This document shows positions 4,509-34,394 of a stretch of 35,034 nucleotides of DNA, in pieces (position 1 is the stretch's first letter; every line of letters starts with the position of its first letter). The notes beneath the pieces are model-generated. The model was not told the origin of the DNA. It was given only the letters and a program-made list of their open reading frames with translations, and made no database searches. Position numbers and translations under genes: made by a program. Source of the DNA: a virus; IMG/VR virus record IMGVR_UViG_3300046006_003476, positions 1 to 35,034 of that record; one strand, written 5' to 3'.

Positions 4509-5562
4509 TAATGATGTGAAGTTAGACTTTGATGATGTATTACTCGTACCACAAAGATCAAAGGCTGCTAGCAGAAAAGATGTTGATTTAAAAAGAACAT
4601 TCAAATTCTATCACTCAAACAGAGATTGGAATGGAATACCAATAGTCGCTGCAAATATGGACACAACTGGCACCTTTGCTATGGGAACAGCGTTATCAGC
4701 TTATGATTGCTTAACATGTCTCAGTAAACATCATGAAGCATCTTCCGTTGCGTCATACTACAGTATGCGTAATAACCAAAATAATGTTTGGGTTAGTGTG
4801 GGCATGGAAGATGATTCTGATAAAATCAGTGAAATAACAGATATTCTTGGGCACTCTCCTAATATCTGCGTAGATGTAGCCAATGGATACACTGAGAAGT
4901 TTATTGATCGGTGTGCCTCGATAAGAAGAAAATTCAATGACTCTATAATTATGGCTGGAAATATTTGCACTCCAGAAATGGTTTCAGAGCTTATTCTTCA
5001 TGGTGGAGTTGATATTGTGAAGGTTGGGATTGGTCCCGGATCTGCTTGCACAACGAGATTAAAAGCTGGAGTAGGATATCCTCAGCTATCTGCTATTGCA
5101 GAATGCTCACACGTAGCTCACGGATTAAGCTCCGATGTTGGTAGACTTGGTTTGATATGTGCTGATGGAGGTTGTCGTTACCCAGCAGATGTAGCCAAGG
5201 CTTATGCTGCTGGAGCAGATTTTGTTATGTTGGGAGGAATGCTTGCTGGCACATGGGAATGCGACGGTGAGTGGACATACGATGAAAACGGCGAAAGAAA
5301 AAGCATGTCATTTTATGGAATGTCTTCAAAAAAATCTCAAGAAAAACATGGAGAAGGTCTTCAAGATTACAAAGCTAGTGAAGGCAGGGTAAAAACTGTT
5401 GACTATAAAGGCACAGTATTCTTGACACTCAGAGATATTTTAGGTGGAATTCGCAGTGCTTGTTCTTACACAGGAGCAACAAATCTTAAAGATTTTAGTA
5501 AAACCGCTAAGTTTATAAGGGTCAACAGAATACACGACAATAAATCTGTAGAGGAATTATGA
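4498..5562 (+). CDS. guaC: GMP reductase
   Basis: NADPH-dependent reductive deamination of GMP to IMP, a purine salvage step. The 354-residue length matches GuaC (about 347 aa) and there is no CBS domain, which argues against IMP dehydrogenase. Diagnostic parts are KLDFDDVLLVPQRS at the N-terminus, the catalytic loop GPGSACTTRLKAGVGYP with Cys184, the LGGMLAGTWE phosphate/loop segment, and the C-terminal GGIRSACSYTGATNL. The ATG at 4498 has AGAGGAAG just upstream; an upstream TTG at 4459 is less likely because it would extend far into dnaB. The gene sits between helicase and primase, so it is expressed with replication proteins. A metabolic gene of this type is unusual in phage replication operons. 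Confidence 0.9.
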   Translation: MKIDNDVKLDFDDVLLVPQRSKAASRKDVDLKRTFKFYHSNRDWNGIPIVAANMDTTGTFAMGTALSAYDCLTCLSKHHEASSVASYYSMRNNQNNVWVSVGMEDDSDKISEITDILGHSPNICVDVANGYTEKFIDRCASIRRKFNDSIIMAGNICTPEMVSELILHGGVDIVKVGIGPGSACTTRLKAGVGYPQLSAIAECSHVAHGLSSDVGRLGLICADGGCRYPADVAKAYAAGADFVMLGGMLAGTWECDGEWTYDENGERKSMSFYGMSSKKSQEKHGEGLQDYKASEGRVKTVDYKGTVFLTLRDILGGIRSACSYTGATNLKDFSKTAKFIRVNRIHDNKSVEEL

Positions 5563-5606
5563 TCATTTACATCTTGATGGCTAACACAAGGTCACGATTT
5601 ATATGA
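5559..5606 (+). CDS. 15-codon mini-ORF linking guaC and primase
   Basis: A short frame (MIIYILMANTRSRFI) starts in an ATGA overlap with the guaC stop and ends in an ATGA overlap with the primase start. GAGG at 5551-5554 lies in ribosome-site position, whereas the primase ATG has no good ribosome site of its own. This arrangement would allow reinitiation on the primase gene. Whether the peptide itself matters is unknown. Confidence 0.4.
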   Translation: MIIYILMANTRSRFI

Positions 5607-6658
5607 AGACAACAAATGCTCGTCTTGATCTCTCTAAAGTAAAAGATATAATTTTTAACGATATCTTCATTCTTCTGGACAGTTTTAAGTTGGAATATAC
5701 TCAGGATAGAGATAACATCTTTATGAGGTGTCCTATTCATGAAGGCAGTGACAATCAAAACGGACTGTCTATTTCTTTGAACAAGCAGATGTGGAAATGT
5801 TGGACCCGTGGCTGTCATGATCATTTTCAATCAGATATTTTTGGTTTGATAAAAGGGTTATTGGATACAGAATCATTCTCAGAGGTATTAAAATACACGT
5901 CTAAATTGTATAATTTTTACGACGCAAAAAGCGATAAGATCACTATCGACACTGTTTCTGGATATGATGCAGACGACTGTTACAATGACTTTAATAAAAT
6001 TGTTAGTTCTATCTCTAGATCTAAAAATAACCCTGAGGGCTGCACCAAGTCACTCAACAATGATTTGTTGGGAGACTCATGGATCATGTCTCCTTATTTC
6101 TTATCCAGAGGGTTTAAAGAAGAAACACTCAAATTCTTTGAGGTTAAAGAAACGAAAGATCGCCAAGGGATTTTTAGACACAGGGCAATCATTCCTATTC
6201 GTTTCAAATCCCATGCCGTTGGATTCATTGCTAGAGCAACCAAAGAATGGATACAACCAAAATACATCTTCTCCGAGGGGTTAAGAAAAACAGATTATTT
6301 ATACAATTTTGACAATGCTATAAGTTCTGCACAAGATACAAATTCAATGTTTTTGGTGGAAGGTCAAGGTGATGTTTGGAGACTGTGGGAATGTGGAGTT
6401 CGCAATTGTGTTGGATTATTTGGAAAAGATATATCCGGAACACAAAGAAGCTTGTTATTGAATTCAGGTGTGACGACGCTCGTCGTGTTGACAGACAATG
6501 ATCAGGCTGGAAGAGAATCTAAAATAAAGATAAACAGAGACCTCGGCAGATTATTCAAATTAATTTTTCCAAACATCAACGCTAAAGATATTGGTTCTAT
6601 ACAAAATAAAACCGTTAAAACGAATATCTTAAAAGACTTAAAAGGATACTATCAATGA
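5603..6658 (+). CDS. DnaG-like primase (CHC2 zinc finger plus Toprim)
   Basis: Synthesises RNA primers for lagging-strand replication. The 351-residue protein has an N-terminal zinc-binding region with C43-P-I-H46 and C66 and C71 (WKCWTRGC), typical of CHC2 primase fingers, and a Toprim domain with E253 in LVEGQGDVW and LTDNDQAGRES (D298, D300) for metal binding. The stretch FRHRAIIPIR and the following GFIARA match the RNA-polymerase-like core that precedes Toprim in DnaG. The protein is shorter than bacterial DnaG and lacks an obvious helicase-interaction domain, as in many phage primases. Its ATG overlaps a mini-ORF stop and its own stop overlaps the next ATG (ATGA). Confidence 0.9.
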   Translation: MKTTNARLDLSKVKDIIFNDIFILLDSFKLEYTQDRDNIFMRCPIHEGSDNQNGLSISLNKQMWKCWTRGCHDHFQSDIFGLIKGLLDTESFSEVLKYTSKLYNFYDAKSDKITIDTVSGYDADDCYNDFNKIVSSISRSKNNPEGCTKSLNNDLLGDSWIMSPYFLSRGFKEETLKFFEVKETKDRQGIFRHRAIIPIRFKSHAVGFIARATKEWIQPKYIFSEGLRKTDYLYNFDNAISSAQDTNSMFLVEGQGDVWRLWECGVRNCVGLFGKDISGTQRSLLLNSGVTTLVVLTDNDQAGRESKIKINRDLGRLFKLIFPNINAKDIGSIQNKTVKTNILKDLKGYYQ

Positions 6659-9032: not shown

Positions 9033-9056
9033 AAAAAAGAAAGATTTATCATGTTA
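9033..9056 (+). repeat. 24-bp direct repeat, right copy
   Basis: Identical to 8499-8522 at a distance of exactly 534 bp. It spans the ribosome site and ATG (9051) of the first DUF1501 gene. Recombination between copies would remove the methyltransferase-fold gene cleanly and place the DUF1501 leader right after the nuclease gene. Confidence 0.95.
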
Positions 9057-10328
9057 CACCATGTTCACATTGGTCGCAGAGGCTTCTTGCAAGCTGGAGT
9101 TTTAGCTGCAATCGGTCATAATATGACGCTTGCTGACATCAAGAGTCACAGCAGTGTGGAAGGCACAGCAAAGAGTGTGATTTTTATATATCTTCCCGGA
9201 GGTATTGCTGCTCAGGAATCATTTGATCCTAAAATCAATGTGCCTGTAGAGTACCGAGGGTCCATGAAGCCAATCAATACCAATGTCGATGGTATTCAGC
9301 TAAATGAGTCTTTGGTGAAAACAGCGACGATTGCAGACAAGTTAACAATACTTCGCTCTATGACTCATGGTGAAGCTGCTCATGAACGAGGCACACACAA
9401 TATATTCACTGGATATAAACCAAGTCCAGCGATTCAATACCCATCTATAGGAGCCGTTGTAAGTCATGAGTTTGGATCTAAAAACAGTATACCTGCGTAC
9501 ATCTCTATTCCAAATCAATCAAATGAATTTGCTGGAACTGGTTATCTGAGCAGTTCTTTTGGATCTTTTGATCTTAACTCTGATCCTGCTAGTGATAATT
9601 TTCAGGTAAAAGATCTTGCTCTTCAAATCGACGCCAAAAGATTCGACAAAAGAAAAAAGGCTTTGGATCTGATAAACTCAGATTTTATCAATCAAAATAA
9701 ATCGGCAGATACTTTGATGGCTATGAACTCCTTTTATGACAAAGCCTATGACTTGATAGGAAATTCTGAGACTCAAGAAGCCTTTAAGCTAGAAAAAGAA
9801 TCGCCAGAAACACGAGACAGATACGGTAGAAATACCGCTGGAGCCAGAATGCTTTTGGCTCGTAGACTTGTGGAAGCTGGAGCAAGGTTCGTCACCTTGA
9901 CATATGGCGGTTGGGATATGCATGATGGTATAGAAAATGGTATCAAATCTCAACTTCCAGCTTTTGATCAAGGTTTTGCTTCATTGATTCAAGATCTATC
10001 AGACCGAGGGCTTTTGAGTTCAACTTTGGTTTGTGTAATTTCTGAATTTGGAAGAACTCCAAAAATTAATTCTACAGCAGGACGAGACCATTGGCCTAGG
10101 GTTTTTAGTTCAGTTCTTGCTGGTGGCGGAATCAAGGGTGGTATTGTTTACGGATCTTCAGACACAACTGGATCAGAACCTCAAAACAATCCGGTTGAAA
10201 TTCATGATTGGGCAACGACAATCTACCATCAAATGGGAATCAATGCTGATAAAGAACTTATGGCCCCCGGAGGCAGACCGATAGAGATTGTTGATTTTGG
10301 AAAAATTATAAAGGATATTATTATATGA
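9051..10328 (+). CDS. Tat-signal DUF1501 protein, first of a pair
   Basis: DUF1501 proteins belong to the alkaline-phosphatase/sulfatase-like fold and are best known from planctomycetes; their substrate is not established. The N-terminus has a twin-arginine signal (IGRRGFLQAGVLAAIG), so export in folded form is predicted. Family motifs are GGIAAQESFDPK near residue 50, HERGTHNIFTGY, YGGWDMHDG, and EFGRTPKIN followed by AGRDHW. The canonical aspartate in the first motif (GGPSxxD in relatives) is Glu here, unlike the partner gene. At 425 residues it is about full length. It overlaps the next DUF1501 gene by 4 nt, suggesting equal expression and perhaps a heteromer. Presence in a phage is very unusual. 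Confidence 0.9.
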   Translation: MLHHVHIGRRGFLQAGVLAAIGHNMTLADIKSHSSVEGTAKSVIFIYLPGGIAAQESFDPKINVPVEYRGSMKPINTNVDGIQLNESLVKTATIADKLTILRSMTHGEAAHERGTHNIFTGYKPSPAIQYPSIGAVVSHEFGSKNSIPAYISIPNQSNEFAGTGYLSSSFGSFDLNSDPASDNFQVKDLALQIDAKRFDKRKKALDLINSDFINQNKSADTLMAMNSFYDKAYDLIGNSETQEAFKLEKESPETRDRYGRNTAGARMLLARRLVEAGARFVTLTYGGWDMHDGIENGIKSQLPAFDQGFASLIQDLSDRGLLSSTLVCVISEFGRTPKINSTAGRDHWPRVFSSVLAGGGIKGGIVYGSSDTTGSEPQNNPVEIHDWATTIYHQMGINADKELMAPGGRPIEIVDFGKIIKDIII

Positions 10329-11557
10329 TAAACAGAAGACATTTCTTAGAGCATGTTGGTGGACTTGCAGCTTTAGCCTCCACATCTTACGCTTTTGGTC
10401 ATAGTATCATTGAAAATGCGTCTAAATTACGCAAACAAGAAAAATCTGCAATTTTAATATGGCTGGGCGGCGGTCCTCCAACTATCGATATGTGGGACTT
10501 GAAACCAAACACCAAGAACGGTGGTCCATTCAAGCCTATCAGCACAACTGGGGATTTTCAGATTTGTGAACATCTGCCTTTGTTGGCACAGCTTGGCGAT
10601 AGCTTTTCTTTGATCAGAAGCATGTCCACTCAAGAAGCAGATCATGAGCGTGGCGCATATTATATGCACACTGGATTCAAACCCTCTCCAACAGTGCAGC
10701 ATCCATCCATTGGCTCTGTGGCATCTTTTGAACTTGGAAAAAACAGAAAAGAACTAGATATTCCATCGTTTTTTTCTGTCAACACCGGAAGTGTCGGCGG
10801 TGGCTTTTTGGGAACTTCGCACAACCCCTTTGTGGTAGATTCCAATGGAAATGTAAATAATCTAGGCAACAAACTCAATCTGAATCGTTTGGACGCTTTA
10901 TCTTTTGTCGAAGATAATTTTATCAATTCTAGACGAGGAGAATTGCCAATAGACCATAAAAAGCTGTATGAAAAAACCATAAAGTTAAATACTTCTCCAC
11001 AGATGGATGCTCTCAAGGTTGACACAGAACCTCAACAAACGAAAGACGCTTATGGAAACACGAGCTTTGGCCGAAGCGTATTGATGGCACGCCGTTTGAT
11101 TCAAGTCGGAGTTCCTTTTGTGGAAGTTGGATTTGGAGGCTGGGATTTGCATCAAATGACTCACGAAACGCTAAAAGACAATAAATTGCCAGAATTAGAC
11201 AAAGCAATTTCCGCATTGATAGTTGATCTCAAAAGGCTTGACATGTGGGAAAATACCGCTATCATCATGATGGGCGAGTTTGGTCGAACGCCCAAAATCA
11301 ATCGGGATGCTGGCAGAGATCACTGGGCTATGAGTTGGAGCGCTTTTGTTTCAGGTGGGTTGTTCAAGAATGGGCAAGTCATTGGATCAACTTCAGAAGA
11401 CGGAACTCAACCTAAAGGATCGATCTATCAAGCTTCAGACCTTATGGCAACCGTTTGTTCTGCTCTTGATATAGACACCAGCAAAGATTATACGTCGAAA
11501 AATGGCCGACCAATGCGTATCGCAAATGGCGGAAACGCAATCAAAGAACTCGTTTAA
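10325..11557 (+). CDS. Tat-signal DUF1501 protein, second of a pair
   Basis: Second DUF1501 paralogue, 410 residues, starting in an ATGA overlap with the first. The Tat signal is NRRHFLEHVGGLAALAS, with a likely cleavage region near TSYAFG. Motifs are intact: LGGGPPTIDMWDLKP (aspartate retained, unlike its partner), HERGAYYMHTGF, FGGWDLHQ, EFGRTPKIN and AGRDHW. The two proteins are clearly related throughout but diverged, so the duplication is old or the pair was acquired together. The predicted location is periplasmic or cell-surface, after infection. A role in altering host envelope sulfated or phosphorylated glycans is possible but only inferred. Confidence 0.9.
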   Translation: MINRRHFLEHVGGLAALASTSYAFGHSIIENASKLRKQEKSAILIWLGGGPPTIDMWDLKPNTKNGGPFKPISTTGDFQICEHLPLLAQLGDSFSLIRSMSTQEADHERGAYYMHTGFKPSPTVQHPSIGSVASFELGKNRKELDIPSFFSVNTGSVGGGFLGTSHNPFVVDSNGNVNNLGNKLNLNRLDALSFVEDNFINSRRGELPIDHKKLYEKTIKLNTSPQMDALKVDTEPQQTKDAYGNTSFGRSVLMARRLIQVGVPFVEVGFGGWDLHQMTHETLKDNKLPELDKAISALIVDLKRLDMWENTAIIMMGEFGRTPKINRDAGRDHWAMSWSAFVSGGLFKNGQVIGSTSEDGTQPKGSIYQASDLMATVCSALDIDTSKDYTSKNGRPMRIANGGNAIKELV

Positions 11558-12597: not shown

Positions 12598-13083
12598 ATG
12601 AGAAAATGTCGCAAGTGCAAAATAAATGAAGTTATAGAAACTAGAAAATTCTGCAGTGACTGCAAAATACAATCAAAAAATTGTATATGTGGTAAAGCGT
12701 TTAAGTCTAAAAAACATAACTATTGTCCTAGATGTAGAACATCTAAAGGTGACAATGAAAAATGCTATGTTTGCGATGAATTCAGATTTATTTATGCTCA
12801 GGGGTGTTGCACAACCTGCTATAGATTTTTAACTAAATATAAAGTTACACCAAATGAATTACTTGAACTGCGCAAAATTTTAAACTGTCAATTGTGCGGA
12901 ATTGAGGTGTCTCATCATATAGGAAATGGAAAGGGCAGAGCTGTGATAGATCACTGTCATGAAACTGGTAACGTTAGGGGGATTTTATGCAATCATTGTA
13001 ATATAATTGAAGGAATGATAAGGAACATTGACCACCTAGAAAATTTCTATAAAAATTATAAAAGATGGGTAGATCATGCCTGA
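12598..13083 (+). CDS. Endonuclease VII-like HNH nuclease with zinc ribbons
   Basis: A 161-residue cysteine-rich protein. Four or more CxxC knuckles fill the first 75 residues (CRKC, CSDC, CICG, CPRC, CYVC, CTTC). The C-terminal part is the recombination endonuclease VII / HNH core: CQLCG, then VIDHCHETGNVRGILCNHCN. The His-Asn chemistry cleaves DNA at branched or specific sites. In phages, free-standing copies of this type are usually homing endonucleases, although T4 gp49 resolves Holliday junctions. The gene is wedged between a structural-type gene and a glycosyltransferase and overlaps the latter by 8 nt, which favours a mobile-gene interpretation. Confidence 0.82.
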   Translation: MRKCRKCKINEVIETRKFCSDCKIQSKNCICGKAFKSKKHNYCPRCRTSKGDNEKCYVCDEFRFIYAQGCCTTCYRFLTKYKVTPNELLELRKILNCQLCGIEVSHHIGNGKGRAVIDHCHETGNVRGILCNHCNIIEGMIRNIDHLENFYKNYKRWVDHA

Positions 13084-14977
13084 ATGTCAATGTGCAAATG
13101 CCGGTTGGTGTGATTTATTCAAAAAAGAAATGACGTATGATCCTCCAAACTGGCAGTGGTGCAAATCACTGTCAGAGGATCAGCGTCGTGACTATTTTAA
13201 TAAAATGGATAGTACTGTGAGGGTTTTAAAAAAAGCCCCTGACGAAACAAAAGCTGACATAGTAAATTTCTTTGATATTCTACCAGAGAAAAAAAGTAAA
13301 TACGCTGTGTGTGTCATTCCCGCGAATGATTCCGCTATGGAATTGCTTGATATCACACGGTCTGGCGTAAAGAAGTACGCAGAAAAATGTGGCGCTGATT
13401 ACATAGAGTTGTCTGGAGATCAAAACCCAAATTGGCCTATGTCAAATAAGTATAGACTAAACAGGGTAGCAAAAGCGTATGACAAAACATTATATTTAGA
13501 TTGTGACATTGTCGTAAAGGATGATGCTCCCAATATATTTGAGCTAACACCAGATGATAAAATATCTGCATACGATGAATATGAGATTTTTGAACAAAGA
13601 AATGATACTGGATGGATCAGAAAGCAACAAGAATCTATATTTCTCACCACACTAGACTCCTTTCCAGAAGAGATAAAAGAAGAGTATGTAAAAAATGGCG
13701 AATTCATAACAGAATCAATGATCAACGGTGGCGTTCTTGTTGTACCAAACGCTTTGGCGGATTATTATAAACAACCAAGCAGTCCATATACTAAATTTTG
13801 GTGTTTTGATCAACATCTTTTAACTTTGGAGCTTCCAGAGGAAAAATTTAATAATCTTACTCACAAATTTAATTGTGAATATGAACGAAAAGATTTTTGG
13901 AATTTTATACATGATGCTCATTTTATTCACTTGAACGGACTCAACGATAAGCCTGACCTTAGAAAAAGTCTATTAAATCAATTTAGTTTTGGAGACTTTA
14001 AGAAAGCTATAAGTGTTGGATTCATTGCGATTTCGTACTTGCTGGCAGGCGGAACGGAGACGTTTCATCGCAGTCTTATTCCACGACTGAAGAATGTCGT
14101 CGATATCGTGGGATTCGTAGCAACCACAGTTATTGGCGGCGATGGATCAAAACTTGCAGTGCCGTACCACACTGGTGTTGAAGCCGCAATAAAATTGGCT
14201 AGTGATTGCGATGTGCTTGTCATTTGGGGAATCGACGATATTGCGCATATCCTGCAGCACAATCGTCCTCGAATTATTGCTGTGCATCATGGAGATTGGG
14301 CCAGTGTATGGAGTAATTATTCTATCCTGAAGCAGACCGACGTGATTGATGACGTTGTTTGTGTGAATGCGGATACAGCCAGTAGGCTTTCCGAGTGTGT
14401 AAAGAATGTTTACTTCATCCCAAACGCGATTGATCCGGATCGGATCACTCCGAGCGGAAATCAATCAGATCTAAGGTCGCTATTCGGTATTTCTCCAGAC
14501 TCCAAAATTGTATTGTTTGGTCATCGGTTGAGCCATGAGAAGCGACCGCGATTGGCTGTAGAGATTGCACAGCACCTCCCAGACGATTGGGTGATGGTGA
14601 TTGCTGGAGATGGTCCAGAGCGGAGTGCGGTGGAGGCTGCTGCGGCTGAAGGATGCAATCGCGTACGCATAGTTGGTAGCTGTGATTCGCTTGCTGACTG
14701 GCTTCAACTGTCCGACTGCTTTCTTTCACTAGCAACAGAAGAGGGATTTGGATTATCCGTTGGTGAAGCGATGGCGGCGGGCGTACCAACTGTCAGCACT
14801 CCAGCAGGTATCGCTCCGGGGCTTGCAACCACAATGCCGACAGATTCGACCGCGGCTGAATGGGCAGAGGCTATTGTCAACTCGAAGGTATTAGTCCAAC
14901 CTAAAGTGATCCTTGAGCGATTCAATTTTCATAGTATGATTAATTCATGGGTTCGCGTTATCGGAGGACTGCAATGA
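13076..14977 (+). CDS. Two-domain glycosyltransferase (GT-A plus GT4 GT-B)
   Basis: A 633-residue fusion. Residues 1-40 carry a small cysteine motif (CQCANAGWC, later WQWC). About residues 75-310 form a GT-A domain of GT8-like type with the metal motif LYLDCDIVV and a VNGG-like segment MINGGVLVV. From about residue 318 (VGFIAISYLLAGGTE) a complete GT4-type domain follows, with GHRLSHEKRP and EEGFGLSVGEAMAAG, the nucleotide-sugar-binding signature of GT4. Base composition changes sharply at the domain border: hand counts give 33% GC at 13921-13980 and 60% at 14581-14640. The GT4 half thus looks recently acquired. Likely function is adding two sugars in sequence to one acceptor. Confidence 0.88.
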   Translation: MPECQCANAGWCDLFKKEMTYDPPNWQWCKSLSEDQRRDYFNKMDSTVRVLKKAPDETKADIVNFFDILPEKKSKYAVCVIPANDSAMELLDITRSGVKKYAEKCGADYIELSGDQNPNWPMSNKYRLNRVAKAYDKTLYLDCDIVVKDDAPNIFELTPDDKISAYDEYEIFEQRNDTGWIRKQQESIFLTTLDSFPEEIKEEYVKNGEFITESMINGGVLVVPNALADYYKQPSSPYTKFWCFDQHLLTLELPEEKFNNLTHKFNCEYERKDFWNFIHDAHFIHLNGLNDKPDLRKSLLNQFSFGDFKKAISVGFIAISYLLAGGTETFHRSLIPRLKNVVDIVGFVATTVIGGDGSKLAVPYHTGVEAAIKLASDCDVLVIWGIDDIAHILQHNRPRIIAVHHGDWASVWSNYSILKQTDVIDDVVCVNADTASRLSECVKNVYFIPNAIDPDRITPSGNQSDLRSLFGISPDSKIVLFGHRLSHEKRPRLAVEIAQHLPDDWVMVIAGDGPERSAVEAAAAEGCNRVRIVGSCDSLADWLQLSDCFLSLATEEGFGLSVGEAMAAGVPTVSTPAGIAPGLATTMPTDSTAAEWAEAIVNSKVLVQPKVILERFNFHSMINSWVRVIGGLQ

Positions 14978-15057
14978 TCAAAAAAAAACTAAATAACAAG
15001 AATTTGAATGCAAAAAACCGAATAGCTTGCTATAATAGCATAGCGAACTGTCTTTGA
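14974..15057 (+). CDS. Possible 27-residue small ORF
   Basis: Starts in an ATGA overlap with the glycosyltransferase stop, with GGAGG at 14962-14966 ahead of it, and encodes a basic peptide beginning MIKKKLNNKN. It covers the promoter-like element before the polymerase gene, so it may be a chance frame. Confidence 0.25.
   Translation: MIKKKLNNKNLNAKNRIACYNSIANCL
15004..15036 (+). promoter_or_regulatory. Promoter-like element before polymerase gene
   Basis: An extended -10 box TGCTATAAT ends at 15036, with TTGAAT at 15004-15009 separated by 21 bases, longer than the usual 17. The same layout recurs at 19656-19688 (12-base AATTTGAWTGCA start and TATWATAG box at identical spacing). It sits in one of the few real gaps of the window. 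GCTATAATAGC around the -10 is a perfect odd palindrome. Also, AAAAACC at 15013-15019 could pair with GGTTTTT at 15074-15080, next to the polymerase start. Confidence 0.55.
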
Positions 15058-15080
15058 GTTTAAAAGATTGAAAGGTTTTT

Positions 15081-16712
15081 ATGAAATGGTTTCCGTTACT
15101 GAATTACACACACTATTCTTTGCAGTATGGTTTCTCAAGACCCAAAGAGCTTGCTAAAAAGTGTAAAGAGAATTCCTATCCAGCGTGTGGGATAGCTGAT
15201 TACAAGTCAATTTCCGGAGCCGTGTCTTTCTACAAAGCCTGTGTAGACAACGATATCAAGCCTATCATTGGATGTTCATTCGATGACTTTTCCATTTTCG
15301 CTAAGAATAAAAACGGATGGCTTGAGTTGATCCAGATCGTATCTTCTATAGATGAAGATGGCAATTACGATCCTTCTTTACTGATTCAGCTTGGTAAAAA
15401 TGGAAACTTGATTTGCGTAGCTTCGAAAGAAGTTTCATCGCCAATCAATGGTGATGATTTCTACGCTTGGTCTGAATCTTTCACAAAGACATTTTATGCA
15501 AACAAAGATCAAGCTGAATTGCATAGAATCATTCTTTGCTCAGCAAACAAAATGACACTTCCTCAGGTAAAGAAAGAGCTGGCATCAAACAAATGCCCAT
15601 CGATCAAGAATTGGCAATTCTTCACCTCTGACGATTTCTATCTCAAAGCAAAGAATGAGATATCACACATTTTAGTGAATGACGCTCGTGTCGATGATTT
15701 TCAAGAGATTTTCGATAAATGCGAAAACTATAACATTCTCAATCAACCGATGTTGCCCACGTTTGCTACTCCAAGTGGAGAGTCTGAAAAAGACTTTTTA
15801 AAAACATTGGCAAGGCAAGGTTGGAAAGAGCTGTTGAACGACAAAATCAAAAACGTTGATGAACGTACCGTTTATGGTGACAGGTTTCGCAGAGAATATG
15901 AAGTTATCGAGCAAGCAAATCTCTTTGGATATTTCCTGATAGTTTGGGATATTTTAAACTATTGTCGCAGTCAAGGTTGGATGGTTGGTCCCGGCAGAGG
16001 GTCGGCAGCAGGCTGTTTGATATCTTATTTGATTGGTATCACACAAATTGATCCAATTGAATTTGACCTTTTGTTTGAAAGGTTTTATAATGCTGGACGA
16101 AACACTGCGGATCATATCTCTTTGCCAGATATTGACATGGACGTTCCGGGAGAAAAACGTGACGAAATCATCGCTTATCTCAAAGACAAGTACACAAATA
16201 CCAATGTTAGTCAAATGTTAACCTTTGGAAGACTTCAAGGCAGAAGTGCCATCAAAGAAGTTTTAAGAGTAAACAATGCCTGTGGCTTTAGCGAAATGAA
16301 TGAAATCACAAGATATATTCCAAATGAAGCCGATATCTCGGATCAATTGGCAGAAATGGATGAAGAAGATCGATCTATTATTCGTTGGTCTTTGATAAAT
16401 AACGCCAAAGAATTGAGAGATTATTGCTATATTTCAGATGAAGGAGAACTCAAAGGAGATTATGCTGTTTATTTTCAGCAAGCAATAGATATTGAAGGAA
16501 CATTTAAAACCCAAAGCAAACATGCTGCTGGTGTTGTTATATCAGCAGAACCTCTTCATAAAGTATGCCCAATGGTCAATCAAAAAAACGGATCTGAAAA
16601 GATAGCAGGTTTAGAAATGTCTGATTTAGAAGCTTTAGGACACGTCAAATTCGACATTCTCGGTCTCAATTTACTGGATAAAATAATGAAAATCAAGGAG
16701 CTAATAGGATAG
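15081..16712 (+). CDS. dnaE: DNA polymerase III alpha, N-terminal half
   Basis: Holds the PHP-like domain and palm of a C-family replicative polymerase. The palm has PGRGSAAGCLISYLIG (304-319), LPDIDMD (348-354) and HVKFDILGL with the third catalytic aspartate D525. It stops 18 residues after that aspartate, where intact polymerases continue into the fingers. The missing fingers and C-terminal domains are encoded by the gene at 18094. The PHP domain lacks the usual HxH and DH metal ligands (LNYTHYS, IADYKS), so it is probably not an active nuclease. AAAGG at 15071-15075 is the ribosome site. No intein residues occur at the break; the halves likely join as subunits. Confidence 0.93.
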   Translation: MKWFPLLNYTHYSLQYGFSRPKELAKKCKENSYPACGIADYKSISGAVSFYKACVDNDIKPIIGCSFDDFSIFAKNKNGWLELIQIVSSIDEDGNYDPSLLIQLGKNGNLICVASKEVSSPINGDDFYAWSESFTKTFYANKDQAELHRIILCSANKMTLPQVKKELASNKCPSIKNWQFFTSDDFYLKAKNEISHILVNDARVDDFQEIFDKCENYNILNQPMLPTFATPSGESEKDFLKTLARQGWKELLNDKIKNVDERTVYGDRFRREYEVIEQANLFGYFLIVWDILNYCRSQGWMVGPGRGSAAGCLISYLIGITQIDPIEFDLLFERFYNAGRNTADHISLPDIDMDVPGEKRDEIIAYLKDKYTNTNVSQMLTFGRLQGRSAIKEVLRVNNACGFSEMNEITRYIPNEADISDQLAEMDEEDRSIIRWSLINNAKELRDYCYISDEGELKGDYAVYFQQAIDIEGTFKTQSKHAAGVVISAEPLHKVCPMVNQKNGSEKIAGLEMSDLEALGHVKFDILGLNLLDKIMKIKELIG

Positions 16713-16779
16713 CTACGAGTCTTGAGGTCAAATTGTGTATAATATCTTGAAACTGGTATTTATACTCAAGGAGACAAAG

Positions 16780-17391
16780 ATGAAAAAAGATGAAAATGGT
16801 AGATTCTTACCAACCAAGAATTATAATCATGACTTAGATGAGAATGAAATAATAAAAATGTACGAAAGCGGCATAAAAGTGAGAGCTATTGCTAGAGAGG
16901 TAAAAAGTTATCCAAAGAAGATTCAAAAGATTCTCAAGAATAATAGTGTAGAATTTAGGATAAAAACTTGTTATTTGAGTGGTCCGGATAATCCAAGATG
17001 GACAGGATTTAAAGAAATGCAAGGTGCATATCTAACGGCAGTAAAAGGTGCAGCAAGAAGAAGAGGATTCGAATTTTCTGTAAGTTATGAGTATCTTTGG
17101 GATATTTTCGTTGATCAGAAACGTCGATGCGTTTACTCCGGTATTGAAATATTTTTCTCTCGTGATAATATAGAACATATAAATGGCAACTACACTGCCT
17201 CCTTAGATAGAATTGATAGTTCATTGGGCTATATTGAAGGTAACGTACAATGGGTACATAAACGTGTGAATGTAATGAAAGGTAACATGGAAGAACAGGA
17301 GTTTCTCGATTTCTGTGAAGCTATTACCTATAAGAATAAAAAGCAGGAAATAATGAAGACTTTTTCTCATTCAGAAAGTAAACGACTATGA
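16780..17391 (+). CDS. HNH homing-type endonuclease with N-terminal HTH
   Basis: A 203-residue protein lying between the polymerase halves. Residues 15-60 form a helix-turn-helix (IIKMYESGIKVRAIAREVKS, then YPKKIQKILKNN) closely patterned like the N-terminus of the nuclease at 33630. The C-terminal part has RRCVYSG and SLDRIDSSLGYIEGNVQWV, the H-N-H-type signature common in phage homing endonucleases. The start is the ATG at 16780 with AAGGAG six bases upstream; a longer frame from a GTG at 16735 lacks a ribosome site. The stop overlaps the exonuclease start by 4 nt. Its position at a polymerase split is typical of homing-gene invasion. Confidence 0.85.
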   Translation: MKKDENGRFLPTKNYNHDLDENEIIKMYESGIKVRAIAREVKSYPKKIQKILKNNSVEFRIKTCYLSGPDNPRWTGFKEMQGAYLTAVKGAARRRGFEFSVSYEYLWDIFVDQKRRCVYSGIEIFFSRDNIEHINGNYTASLDRIDSSLGYIEGNVQWVHKRVNVMKGNMEEQEFLDFCEAITYKNKKQEIMKTFSHSESKRL

Positions 17392-18068
17392 CCATAAGGG
17401 ACGTGATTTGTTTCGATTTTGAAACGGGTGGTCGCAACCCGCACACATGTCAACCAACTCAAATAGCTGCCGTAGCTCTTGATGGTAGAAATTTTAAACT
17501 AAAAGGAACCTTCAATAGCTTGATGAGACCAATCATCGACGATGAAGCTGCTATTGCAGCAGGAGTGGGTCCGCTAGAAGAAGAAGCGTTAAAAATCACC
17601 AGACAGACACGAGAGGTATTGGCCAAAGCACCATTGCCCAAAGCTGTTTGGAAAAAGTTTACAAACTTTGTGAACAAGTACAATTGGAAAGGCACACCGT
17701 TTTTTGCTCCTATTCCTTGTGGCTTTAACATCAATGGGTTTGATATGCACATTGTGAATAGACTGTGCAAACAATATGGACCGTGGGATGAAGTGCGACT
17801 GCAACAAAAGTTATTTCATCAAATCTATAAAATAGATGTAATGGATGATGTTTGGCTATGGACAGAAAGTGATCCAGAGGTTAAATCCATCAGCATGGAC
17901 GCTCTCAGAAAAAGAATGGGTCTTTCTACTGAAAACGCTCACGATGCATTGCAAGACGTTAAAGATACAGCCAATATTTTTATAAAATTACAAAAGTCAA
18001 GACGTGCAGTATACAGAAACATGAAATTTGATAACGCTTTTGTTGACGGCGATTTGTTCATTGTGTGA
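17388..18068 (+). CDS. DnaQ-like 3'-5' proofreading exonuclease
   Basis: A 226-residue DEDDh exonuclease. Exo I is FDFETGG (D10, E12), Exo II is FNINGFDMHIVN (D119) and Exo III is HDALQDV (H185, D190). It would remove mismatched 3' ends for the split polymerase, whose own PHP domain seems inactive. The gene is translationally coupled to the homing-type nuclease by an ATGA overlap and is followed 25 bp later by the polymerase C-half, so editing and synthesis proteins are made from one message. The insertion between residues 50 and 105, rich in Ala and Lys, is longer than in minimal DnaQ domains. Confidence 0.9.
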   Translation: MTIRDVICFDFETGGRNPHTCQPTQIAAVALDGRNFKLKGTFNSLMRPIIDDEAAIAAGVGPLEEEALKITRQTREVLAKAPLPKAVWKKFTNFVNKYNWKGTPFFAPIPCGFNINGFDMHIVNRLCKQYGPWDEVRLQQKLFHQIYKIDVMDDVWLWTESDPEVKSISMDALRKRMGLSTENAHDALQDVKDTANIFIKLQKSRRAVYRNMKFDNAFVDGDLFIV

Positions 18069-18093
18069 ATAACCATTATATGTTGAGGTTTGA

Positions 18094-19659
18094 ATGATCG
18101 ACAGAAATGATCCTGAGGCTTGGAGCCTATACAAAAACGGTTTGACAAAAGGGATTTTCCAATTAGAAAGTAATCATGGTCGCAATTGGTCTAAAAAGTT
18201 GGCTCCGGAAAATCTAGAGGAACTTGCTGCATTGGTAGCACTTTTGAGACCGGGGTGTACCAAGGCTATCATCGACGGAAAGTCAATGACACAAAGGTTT
18301 GTTGACAGAAAACACAACAGAGAAGAAGTTTCATATCTACATCCATTGCTTGAAGATATTTTAAAACCAACTTATGGGGTTTTAGTTTATCAAGAACAAG
18401 CGATGCGTATTGCTGTAAAGTTAGCTGGTTTCAGCGAAACTGAAACAGACAACCTTCGCAAGGCTATTGGCAAAAAGAAGGCTGATTTGATGGCCTCGAT
18501 TCGAAATGATTTTATTGCTGGATGTAAAAACGTAGGACTTGTAGACGAAGAAACGGCGAAAGAAATTTTTGGATGGATTGAAAAGTCTTCCAGATATTCT
18601 TTCAATAAATCACATGCTGTAGCCTACGCCTTAGACTCTTATTGGTCAGCTTGGTACAAAGCTCATCATACAAAAGAGTTTTTCCTGTCTTACTTGTTCT
18701 ATGCTAATGAAAAGCAAGATCCTCATCAAGAAATCTATGAGCTGGTCAATGAAGCTAAACTGTTCAATATAGAAGTAAAGATTCCTAAACTAAGTGGGTT
18801 TTCTACTAAATTCTGTATTACAAATGACGACATTTGTTTTGGAATAAAAGACATCAAAAGCTTGACGGGTGTGACTGGCGACAAAGTCATTCAGGCTATC
18901 GCTCAAGCAGTTGATGAAATCAAAAAGCAACCATCAGAATTCACTTGGCTGGATGTGCTCGTTTATTTATCCCCAAAGATTAATTCGACAGCATTTAAAG
19001 CTTTGTGTGCTATTGGTTTCTTTTCGACAAAATCCACAGGTGTCACCAGAAATCAAGCTATTTATGAATATTTGATTTTTAAAGAACTAACCAAGAACGA
19101 AGTGCAATGGGTCTTCGAGAATCAAGCGAAAAGACAATGGCAAAAGCTTGACGAATGTTTCAATGATTTGGCTCCAACCAAGAAAAATGGAGGAGGAGCA
19201 AGCAATGTGAATCGCAATCAGATCATATTGAATGAACTGAACATGCTGAAAAATCCACCGTATGATCTGAAAGATGATCCAGCGTGGATCGTCGATCAAG
19301 AAACCAAGATGCTTGGATGTCCAATTTCTCTTTCAAAGATAGACGCTGTGGATACGTCTGTAGCAAACGCTACGTGCAAGGACATTGTGAATGGAAGAAA
19401 GGGTAAAAACATTTGTCTTGTAGCAAATGTTCAGCGTGTATCCAATCACAAGATAAATAAAGCAAACAGCAAACAAAAAGGAAGAGTCATGTCTTTTCTG
19501 ACAATAGAAGACGCCACATGCAGTTTAGACAGCGTGATCGTATTTCCAGACGTCAGAGATGTATACCATTTTATTCTTTATGAAGGAAACAATCTTATGC
19601 TTTGCGGAGAAGTTGATAAGGATAATTCATTTATTGTAGAGAAAATTCATGAAATTTGA
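18094..19659 (+). CDS. dnaE: DNA polymerase III alpha, C-terminal half
   Basis: 521 residues continuing the polymerase where the N-half stops. It opens with DRNDPEAWSLYKNG and GIFQLES, matching the start of the fingers region in intact DnaE, then ALVALLRPG, YLHPLLEDILKPTYGVLVYQEQ, and SRYSFNKSHAVAYAL, all diagnostic. The C-terminus has helix-hairpin-type and OB-fold segments (VMSFLTIEDATCSLDSVIVF). About nine linker residues seem absent between halves by comparison with bacterial DnaE. The ATG at 18094 has GAGG at 18085-18088 and an in-frame stop directly upstream, so this is an independent protein and not read-through. All three catalytic aspartates are in the other half, so both are needed. 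Confidence 0.92.
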   Translation: MIDRNDPEAWSLYKNGLTKGIFQLESNHGRNWSKKLAPENLEELAALVALLRPGCTKAIIDGKSMTQRFVDRKHNREEVSYLHPLLEDILKPTYGVLVYQEQAMRIAVKLAGFSETETDNLRKAIGKKKADLMASIRNDFIAGCKNVGLVDEETAKEIFGWIEKSSRYSFNKSHAVAYALDSYWSAWYKAHHTKEFFLSYLFYANEKQDPHQEIYELVNEAKLFNIEVKIPKLSGFSTKFCITNDDICFGIKDIKSLTGVTGDKVIQAIAQAVDEIKKQPSEFTWLDVLVYLSPKINSTAFKALCAIGFFSTKSTGVTRNQAIYEYLIFKELTKNEVQWVFENQAKRQWQKLDECFNDLAPTKKNGGGASNVNRNQIILNELNMLKNPPYDLKDDPAWIVDQETKMLGCPISLSKIDAVDTSVANATCKDIVNGRKGKNICLVANVQRVSNHKINKANSKQKGRVMSFLTIEDATCSLDSVIVFPDVRDVYHFILYEGNNLMLCGEVDKDNSFIVEKIHEI

Positions 19660-33194: not shown

Positions 33195-33637
33195 ACTTAG
33201 GCTTTTTTATTCAGAACAATTGCGGAACTCCACAAAACACCAAGATCTATAAGTTTCTAAATGAAGCTATTGGTGATCATGCTTTACGAGACGCAAGTGT
33301 TTTCTTCAATGATGTTGGCTTCAATCCAGTGAATCCAAAGTTTGGTATGTTTGATGGAGCAGATATCTGGAGCTTCAAGGGTAATTTGATCTGCACGTCT
33401 GTAGAGAATTTAAGAAAAGCAGTTTCTATAGTCAACGCTATCAAGGTCGCATATCTTTTTAGCTCAAGCGATCCTGTTGAAAACAATATCTTCGACTTTG
33501 TTAGTATCTCAAAATCTTATAAAGTTTTGGTGGACAACGAGGTTGATCAAAATACTTTTTATAGACTAACAGGCGTAAAACCAATCTTGATGCAAGAATG
33601 GTCAGTTCCTACACTGAGCGAGGTTTTCAATGAATGA
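33191..33637 (+). CDS. Unknown protein at island end
   Basis: 148 residues, no family recognised. The start FFIQNNCGTPQNTKIYKF and the later GADIWSFKGNLICTSVENLRKAVSIVNAI suggest an alpha/beta fold; no donor motif or membrane segment is visible. The ATG at 33191 overlaps the fcl stop by 4 nt and has GGGAG upstream. The gene could be a glycan-island accessory protein by position only. Confidence 0.6.
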   Translation: MNLGFFIQNNCGTPQNTKIYKFLNEAIGDHALRDASVFFNDVGFNPVNPKFGMFDGADIWSFKGNLICTSVENLRKAVSIVNAIKVAYLFSSSDPVENNIFDFVSISKSYKVLVDNEVDQNTFYRLTGVKPILMQEWSVPTLSEVFNE

Positions 33638-34394
33638 TCTTGATCAAAAAATTATAGATTTGTACAACAATGCAAATCAAAGTACTTATGAAATAGCCGT
33701 ACAGCTTAACACATATCCAAATAAAATAAGAAGAACCCTGATTCGTCACGGATATCAATTAAAGGATAAAAGTGAAGCTCAAAAGACCGCTTTAGGAAAC
33801 GGTCGCAGTGCTCATCCAACAGAAGGCAAGAAAAGAACTGAAGCCGAGAAAATAGCGATCAGTAAAAGTCTTGTTAATTATTGGGAAGAAATGAGTGAAA
33901 ATCAAAGGGAAAAGAGAATCAATCAAGCAAAAGACAATTGGAAAAACATGTCTGATGAAGCCAAGGAAAATATGCGATCCAAAGGTATTGCAGCAATCAG
34001 AAATGCAGCCACAGAAGGCTCTAAGCTTGAGAAGTTCATTGCTGAAAGATTGATGATGGCGGGTTTTTCAATTAAATTGCACCAAATGATTATTCCCGCT
34101 GAAAACTTGGAAATTGATTTGTATATTCAGGAATTGAAGACTATCATAGAGGTGGATGGGCCGAGCCACTTTTTGCCAATCTGGGGCGAAGAAAAGCTTC
34201 AAAAGCAAGTGAATGCTGACCTTAGAAAGAGCGGAGCACTGTTGAGCAAAGGATACGTAGTGATACGAGTAAAATCACTGGGACAGGAATCTTTGGCCAA
34301 ACGACAAGAAATATTGAAGTCTCTTCTCGAAGAGGTTTTAAAAATCAAGGATCAGTTTCCGCCAAGATCTAAACGTTTTATTGAGGTTGAATAA
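33630..34394 (+). CDS. HTH plus PD-(D/E)XK homing-type endonuclease
   Basis: 254 residues. Residues 5-42 form an HTH (IIDLYNNANQSTYEIAVQL, then YPNKIRRTLIRHG) with the same pattern as the HNH protein at 16780. A lysine-rich helical linker follows (45-125). The nuclease domain has E134 (KLEKFIAERL), D163 (LEIDLYI), E174-V-D176-G-P-S-H180-F, then RKSGALLSKGYVVIRVKS, similar to Vsr-like (EDxHD-type) homing endonucleases. It starts 8 nt inside the previous gene and ends with a one-base overlap with the next. It is probably a selfish mobile gene. Confidence 0.8.
   Translation: MNDLDQKIIDLYNNANQSTYEIAVQLNTYPNKIRRTLIRHGYQLKDKSEAQKTALGNGRSAHPTEGKKRTEAEKIAISKSLVNYWEEMSENQREKRINQAKDNWKNMSDEAKENMRSKGIAAIRNAATEGSKLEKFIAERLMMAGFSIKLHQMIIPAENLEIDLYIQELKTIIEVDGPSHFLPIWGEEKLQKQVNADLRKSGALLSKGYVVIRVKSLGQESLAKRQEILKSLLEEVLKIKDQFPPRSKRFIEVE

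Follow-up and report, generated by a model that had tools for sequence, protein, structure and literature searches.

Cyanobacterial dnaE is split, and in PolC the exonuclease is an in-frame domain inside the PHP domain. Dassa and colleagues reportedly described, in 2009, fractured genes with split inteins and an endonuclease gene between the halves. In Aeromonas phages 44RR and 25, a family B polymerase is split as gp43A/gp43B; the phage 25 gp43 halves co-purify with polymerase activity, and a homing gene (seg) lies at the break in phage 25 (PMC2988022). Group 2.2 jumbo phages encode a split minimal Pol III alpha from distantly located genes, with a family B polymerase alongside (Iyer et al. 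2021, PMC7824862). Here we describe a split DnaE-type polymerase in a 35,034-nt stretch of viral DNA, hereafter the window (IMG/VR record IMGVR_UViG_3300046006_003476, positions 1 to 35,034), in which genes for an N half (N), a helix-turn-helix (HTH)-HNH protein, a DEDDh exonuclease (EXO) and a C half (C) follow one another on the + strand. We consider it highly likely that this is a replicase operon, shared by a line of uncultured phages, that encodes a three-protein core, with a fixed ancestral break and a recent HNH insertion. Split phage polymerases are known; what is new is a fixed, intein-free split between palm and fingers with an exonuclease gene inside. A literature search for the N-EXO-C arrangement, covering titles and abstract openings and leaving subscription papers largely outside its coverage, found no paper describing it.

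As for gp43A/gp43B, a phage replicative polymerase would be made as two chains, but gp43A/gp43B is a family B enzyme for which the available text mentions no exonuclease gene between the halves, whereas the present enzyme belongs to family C, has EXO inside the split and is fixed across a broad clade. The locus shares with the jumbo-phage Pol III alpha a C-family catalytic module divided into N and C proteins; unlike that enzyme, it is nearly full length and encoded by adjacent genes with EXO between them, and a family B polymerase (PF00136) was found in 0 of 8 records, comprising seven virus records of 122-174 kb and a metagenome-assembled genome (MAG) with its own bacterial polymerases. As in PolC, an exonuclease lies within a C-family polymerase locus, here as a separate gene between palm and fingers. 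Cbastvirus (Cellulophaga phi13:1 and Tenacibaculum Larrie) has a DnaE annotated in GenBank as two open reading frames (ORFs) in adjacent genes. Its break falls at N 342/347, immediately ahead of the SLPDIDMD motif, rather than at the palm/finger boundary, and its DEDDh exonuclease gene lies upstream, at ~2 kb (Larrie) and 4.6 kb (phi13:1), not inside the split. Because the Cbastvirus split is at another point, before the catalytic motif, it is probably an independent break. In two relatives of the window (L041 ~5335-5626 and L042 ~9050-9349), N is interrupted at model position 342-354, which coincides with the Cbastvirus break, and no intein is obvious there.

N (15081-16712, 543 residues) comprises a PHP domain and the palm, with Pfam matches to PF02811 (PHP) and PF07733 (E 3e-67, reaching residue 528), and C (18094-19659, 521 residues) comprises the fingers and following domains with an OB-like C-terminus, its start falling inside a match to the PF17657 finger domain (E 5e-45). 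Profile alignment, including a PDB profile match for N and a DnaE profile for C, places N on residues ~6-566 of E. coli DnaE and C on ~591-852 and, weakly, on 1008-1058; at the break, ~24 residues of the E. coli protein match neither N nor C. D350, D352 and D525 of N align with the E. coli catalytic aspartates, which we take to be D401, D403 and D555; all three lie in N and are invariant in 16/16 aligned members, the sample on which invariance was judged for both N and EXO. From the domain limits, the thumb is presumably also in N. An AlphaFold model of N (predicted local distance difference test score, pLDDT, 85.9) gave a TM-score of 0.75, normalised to N, against E. coli DnaE (2hnh). With the catalytic aspartates in N and the finger domain opening C, the break therefore parts the chemistry (palm) from the fingers, and these matches put it at the palm/finger boundary, N ending ~15 residues past the FDILGL motif. 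The reading frames of N, EXO and C are open at the coordinates first reported, an in-frame TGA (18091-18093) stands directly 5' of the C start ATG, and sequence reading places Shine-Dalgarno-like AAAGG (15071-15075) before N and TGAGG (18084-18088) before C. The original prediction of a polymerase split at these coordinates into separately translated halves is thus borne out.

EXO (17388-18068, 226 residues), the presumed proofreading subunit, matches PF00929 (E 3e-12) and phrog_192, DNA polymerase exonuclease subunit (E 1e-26). Its D10/E12/D119/H185/D190, assigned to the DEDDh motif by eye, are likewise invariant in 16/16 members, and its AlphaFold model (pLDDT 85.7) has the DEDDh fold; the domain match, motif residues and fold matches agree with the earlier claim that a DEDDh exonuclease gene lies inside the polymerase split. 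Exactly one PF00929 match per record was found in 9/9 records and, in the window's clade, this match is EXO, which by position and uniqueness is the best candidate for the proofreader. A point on the other side is that the structures nearest to the model by E-value are RNase T, then DinG and ExoI, with the PolC/DnaQ exonuclease domains ranked lower, so the proofreading label draws on gene position and on EXO being the sole PF00929 match. An exonuclease of Bacteroides phage SJC03, the first listed of seven weak matches in annotated phages, was considered as a relative and rejected: it is 27% identical, lies directly before a terminase gene and has no polymerase half within the surrounding 12.6 kb.

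Relatives were gathered from IMG/VR with N, C and EXO as queries, and loci were classified with member-built profiles. The loci fetched held 188 distinct EXO DNA sequences, the basis of the gene-order count: 183 had the order N-EXO-C, the remaining 5 had N-EXO running off sequence ends, and none had a fused polymerase. The catalytic aspartates, PHP domain and fingers domain of a C-family enzyme are thus present, and the single polypeptide is absent. In the loci fetched, the N, EXO and C genes all lie on one strand. With C as the query, 80/80 loci held N, EXO and C, with EXO and N upstream; with EXO as the query, 79/80 and 78/80 loci held all three, the other 3 stopping 300-474 nt past EXO. N as the query returned all three genes in order in 38/49 loci, the remainder stopping within or soon after EXO (5) or 1-513 nt past the last N match (6). 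Two loci from an HNH scan (L211 and L243) stop ~700 nt past N, with an HNH gene within that stretch. In a divergent set from a separate scan (L375-L380), EXO follows N in 4/6 loci and 2 end before EXO; the sole locus long enough also carries C. Recurrence in 183/188 sequences makes the arrangement far from chance. Because the window is a single metagenomic contig, an assembly artefact or a dead polymerase might be suspected, but the same order is repeated in 183 distinct sequences from many contigs, the catalytic residues are invariant in 16/16 members and the same HNH type occupies the same seam of other contigs, and we regard this explanation as scarcely credible.

In a maximum-likelihood tree of palm and finger segments (47 taxa, rooted on one bacterial DnaE, L372), the 37 taxa that are members were monophyletic with ultrafast bootstrap (UFBoot) support of 100, and the nearest outgroup, with UFBoot 83, was Cbastvirus plus Chryseobacterium phage MA9V-3, whose DnaE is intact. 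An IMG/VR search for relatives of the Chryseobacterium phage polymerase found none, and a scan of genome contigs yielded a single member, on a contig of a SAR202 MAG, plus a single intact but distant DnaE. The search for relatives with an intact DnaE lacking the insert, a check proposed with the original prediction, found them only outside the clade, in more distant phages and genomes; inside it, among the loci fetched, none has an intact polymerase with a distant exonuclease. Most simply, the palm/finger break with EXO inside would have arisen once, in the ancestor, and by the tree and the gene orders the split with the exonuclease inside is ancestral and fixed in the clade.

The HTH-HNH protein of the window (16780-17391, 203 residues) is presumed, from its PHROG matches and distribution, to be a free-standing homing endonuclease. 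The longer ORF from 16735 matches phrog_3322 (E 7e-27) and phrog_3118, HNH endonuclease (E 2e-14); in Pfam, HTH_7 falls just under the cut-off and none of the HNH models matches the protein. The start is more likely ATG 16780 than GTG 16735 or 16713, as AAGGAG stands at 16768-16773 and the starts assigned to six relatives align there. The leader (16713-16779), aligned between the window and these six relatives, contains this ribosome site, a GTGTATAA box and a predicted hairpin. GTGTATA is common to all seven leaders, and minimum-free-energy folds, made without a shuffled control, predict for most of them a hairpin close to the ribosome site; taken by itself, the GTGTATAA box is no commoner in the window than chance would give. 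The end of the HNH gene and the beginning of EXO share four bases, ATGA (17388-17391).

Comparison of the window with L001/L010 by blastn revealed an insertion segment of 691 bp (16706-17396) that corresponds to 8 bp in these relatives, between flanking blocks that are 98.8-98.9% identical. L001/L010 and L034 (94-95.5% identical) have no HNH gene but the same split, with EXO inside. These relatives bear on the explanation in which an intact dnaE of this genome was divided by the HNH gene, or by a block of HNH and exonuclease, in the way that homing genes divided some genes of T4-like phages. Such splits are documented in T4-like phages (PMC2988022), and here the HNH and EXO genes overlap and lie together in the gap; nevertheless, the HNH-less relatives split at the same place refute this explanation for the window, and EXO separates the halves in all C-query loci, compared to an HNH gene or remnant in 13/113 junctions examined. 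We therefore consider an HNH-caused split very improbable, although an ancestral role of another homing gene is possible. Of what the original prediction said about this segment, the HTH-HNH gene agrees with the PHROG matches and its ATGA overlap with EXO is confirmed, whereas the proposals that the HNH gene caused the split and that HNH and exonuclease form one inserted block do not hold: there are two layers, with EXO probably ancestral and HNH recent. The suggested new operon order is right in having the exonuclease inside but not in being new here, as the HNH-less relatives are split alike and 80/80 C-query loci carry EXO and N; the order has long been fixed, and HNH joined it later as a passenger.

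HNH homologues were classed by identity. All 7 with at least 55% identity over at least 100 residues lie in the N|EXO seam, among them L338, a member of the other main subgroup; at 40-55% identity 3/33 are in the seam, and below 40% identity 7/31, and each of these two classes also includes one homologue that follows N where the contig stops. Five short C-terminal HNH remnants (41-64 residues, 52-88% identity) are also in the seam. This distribution fits gain, decay and loss. The 30-nt stretch encoding EXO motif I differs by at least 20% in 11/11 close pairs in which one member has an HNH gene or remnant, compared to 4/23 close pairs without HNH; collapsed to groups, the counts are 5/5 and 3/12. 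Few residues of the protein change, as in DVLVFDFETG and DVICFDFETG. Such differences are what would be seen if the nuclease cut within motif I and its carriers had been recoded. Several observations weigh against this picture of site-specific homing: scans selecting for the N-EXO-C locus were the source of two of the seven homologues (L118 and L338; the other five came from an HNH-driven scan) and of three of the five remnants; a short HNH match in L282 (55% over 65 residues) lies outside the seam; the pairs in the recoding comparison are related rather than independent and mix HNH families; and L001 and L034, both HNH-less, also differ strongly at motif I. The hallmarks of a homing gene found here are an HNH sequence by PHROG, patchy presence at one site and changed flanks in carriers. 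By the presence-absence comparison the HNH gene is a recent passenger between N and EXO, and it is probably selfish. It resembles MobA-E of T4, which are free-standing HNH homing endonucleases (PMC2988022), in lying between conserved genes with a patchy distribution, and differs in its host gene; cleavage by the window's protein is presumed.

Junctions between the polymerase genes vary among relatives. In the window's subgroup (125 loci), an overlap of 4, 8 or 11 nt joins N to EXO in 69/113 measurable junctions, and EXO and C overlap in 57/119. AAGGAG or AAGGAA ends 4-7 nt before the EXO start in 44/76 HNH-less junctions, the other 32 lacking the exact pattern. By comparison with these junctions, AAGGAG inside the N 3' end of the window (16695-16700) is likely the ancestral EXO ribosome site, now parted from EXO by the HNH gene. 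The short gene overlaps, plus an EXO ribosome site inside the N end in many members, would couple translation. In the L038-like subgroup, the N-to-EXO gap is 220-261 nt in 71/81 loci, usually around a small conserved gene. The encoded protein of ~72 residues occurs between N and EXO in most L038-like loci (L287-L366 and L038) and after C in the divergent member L379 (11105-11365), and was not found in the window; it has no Pfam match, and its PHROG matches are weak and of unknown function alone.

All three relative N/EXO reading frames occur among relatives, on which ground a conserved frameshift was rejected, and N-EXO seams reach ~1.8 kb with unrelated genes. HNH genes and other cargo are present in both seams; seam cargo includes several HNH types and methyltransferase-like, glycosyltransferase-like and EndoVII-like ORFs, named by eye. 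An EXO-C insert in L379 (8601-9299) encodes a DNA/RNA non-specific endonuclease (PF01223, E 5e-45), a kind not seen by eye in other seams. Varying frames and variable seams are hard to square with a fixed splicing or frameshift mechanism. Removal of the intervening sequence at the RNA or protein level (by an intron, trans-splicing or a programmed frameshift) to give one chain might be suggested by the intein-like elements elsewhere in relatives' polymerases; however, neither the window nor any of 10 relatives gave an Rfam intron match at gathering score, every part is delimited by a start and a stop codon of its own, and ribosome-site-like sequence precedes N, HNH and C. Together with the frames and seams, these results make removal extremely improbable.

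Intein-like insertions interrupt the polymerase of relatives (L046, L118, L120, L172, L325, L333, L344, L016 and L355); those at N308 and C172 are divided between separate frames, and those at C52 are contiguous. In Pfam, L016 (C52) passes the Intein_splicing cut-off, and the two first fragments of L046, whose polymerase is in four pieces, give Intein_splicing/Hint matches that stay below it. None of these sites is at the palm/finger break, where inspection of the N and C ends and a Pfam scan found no intein or intein half, as the original prediction had maintained. Like fractured genes, the window's polymerase is in two pieces with an endonuclease gene between them, and relatives carry split intein-like insertions at other sites; unlike intein-split genes, it has no intein fragments at the break, which differs in position from the FNK|SHAVAYA site. 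The break could be a fossil of such a gene: dnaE would have been broken in an ancestor by a split intein or a homing endonuclease, with later loss of the intein and an exonuclease gene that moved into the gap or was there already. The insertions at N308, C172 and C52 of the same polymerase and the cargo in both seams would suit this history, but C opens directly with finger sequence and the N end is poorly conserved, in contrast to intein sites, which lie in conserved motifs. We regard a fossil fractured gene as possible but doubtful.

Each of the seven virus records has one PF07733 protein and no PolA or PolB match, and a beta clamp model had no match in the records searched for polymerases. 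With one PF07733 protein and neither PolA nor PolB, the split enzyme, the sole replicative polymerase detected in these records, is the best candidate for the replicase; on the other side, the large records may lack parts of their genomes, and a polymerase of another family could have escaped detection. We propose that N, EXO and C are made separately and, with no splicing, most likely come together as a single C-family polymerase core, in which N would provide the catalytic aspartates, C would provide fingers gripping the incoming nucleotide and template, and EXO would proofread. More tentatively, the three chains may form an obligatory core that has replaced the one-chain C-family replicase throughout the lineage, with an active site complete only when palm and finger proteins meet, EXO as an assembly partner, unproofread polymerisation avoided by gene order and an extra small operon protein in some sub-lineages; this elaboration seems to us possible but less likely than not. 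A free-standing HTH-HNH homing endonuclease appears to have recently entered the N/EXO junction of this genome. Judging from the rewritten sequence, its cleavage target is probably the empty junction around motif I of the exonuclease; carriers would be protected because the insertion separates and rewrites the cut site.

Other parts of the window and its relatives also show variation or unexpected genes. The segment 12601-13057, which corresponds to 22 bp in the close relative L001, covers most of an EndoVII-like gene (12598-13083); because the segment is missing from L001, this looks like a second recently gained nuclease gene. At 14001-14990, the end of a glycosyltransferase gene, L001 has ~2.4 kb of different sequence, marking a variable locus directly upstream of the polymerase. 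A protein encoded at 33630-34394 has a DUF559 match just under the cut-off and, judged by eye, is similar at its N-terminus to the HTH of the HNH protein. Two adjacent DUF1501 proteins (9051-11557; PF07394, E 1e-110 and 3e-88), with Tat-like N-termini by eye, are unexpected in a phage. Searches for tail sheath and Gp23 were positive in 0/9 records, the Gp23 search being made without a positive control. The SAR202 MAG contig (L285; VFHP01000007.1; 152,655 bp) holds a member with a 73%-identical N, which may be explained by a prophage, by an infecting phage or by a binning error.

Our results suggest that a replicative C-family polymerase can persist as two chains cut between palm and fingers. 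As apparently the sole replicase of a broad phage group, the two-chain enzyme would be a natural split-polymerase scaffold, and the locus offers a way of testing how palm, fingers and a proofreader come together. Mobile elements are layered on this one essential enzyme: its split is fixed, relatives carry intein-like insertions at three further sites, and the seam has taken up homing-type nuclease genes. The pairs of genomes with and without the HNH gene make homing at the junction directly testable.

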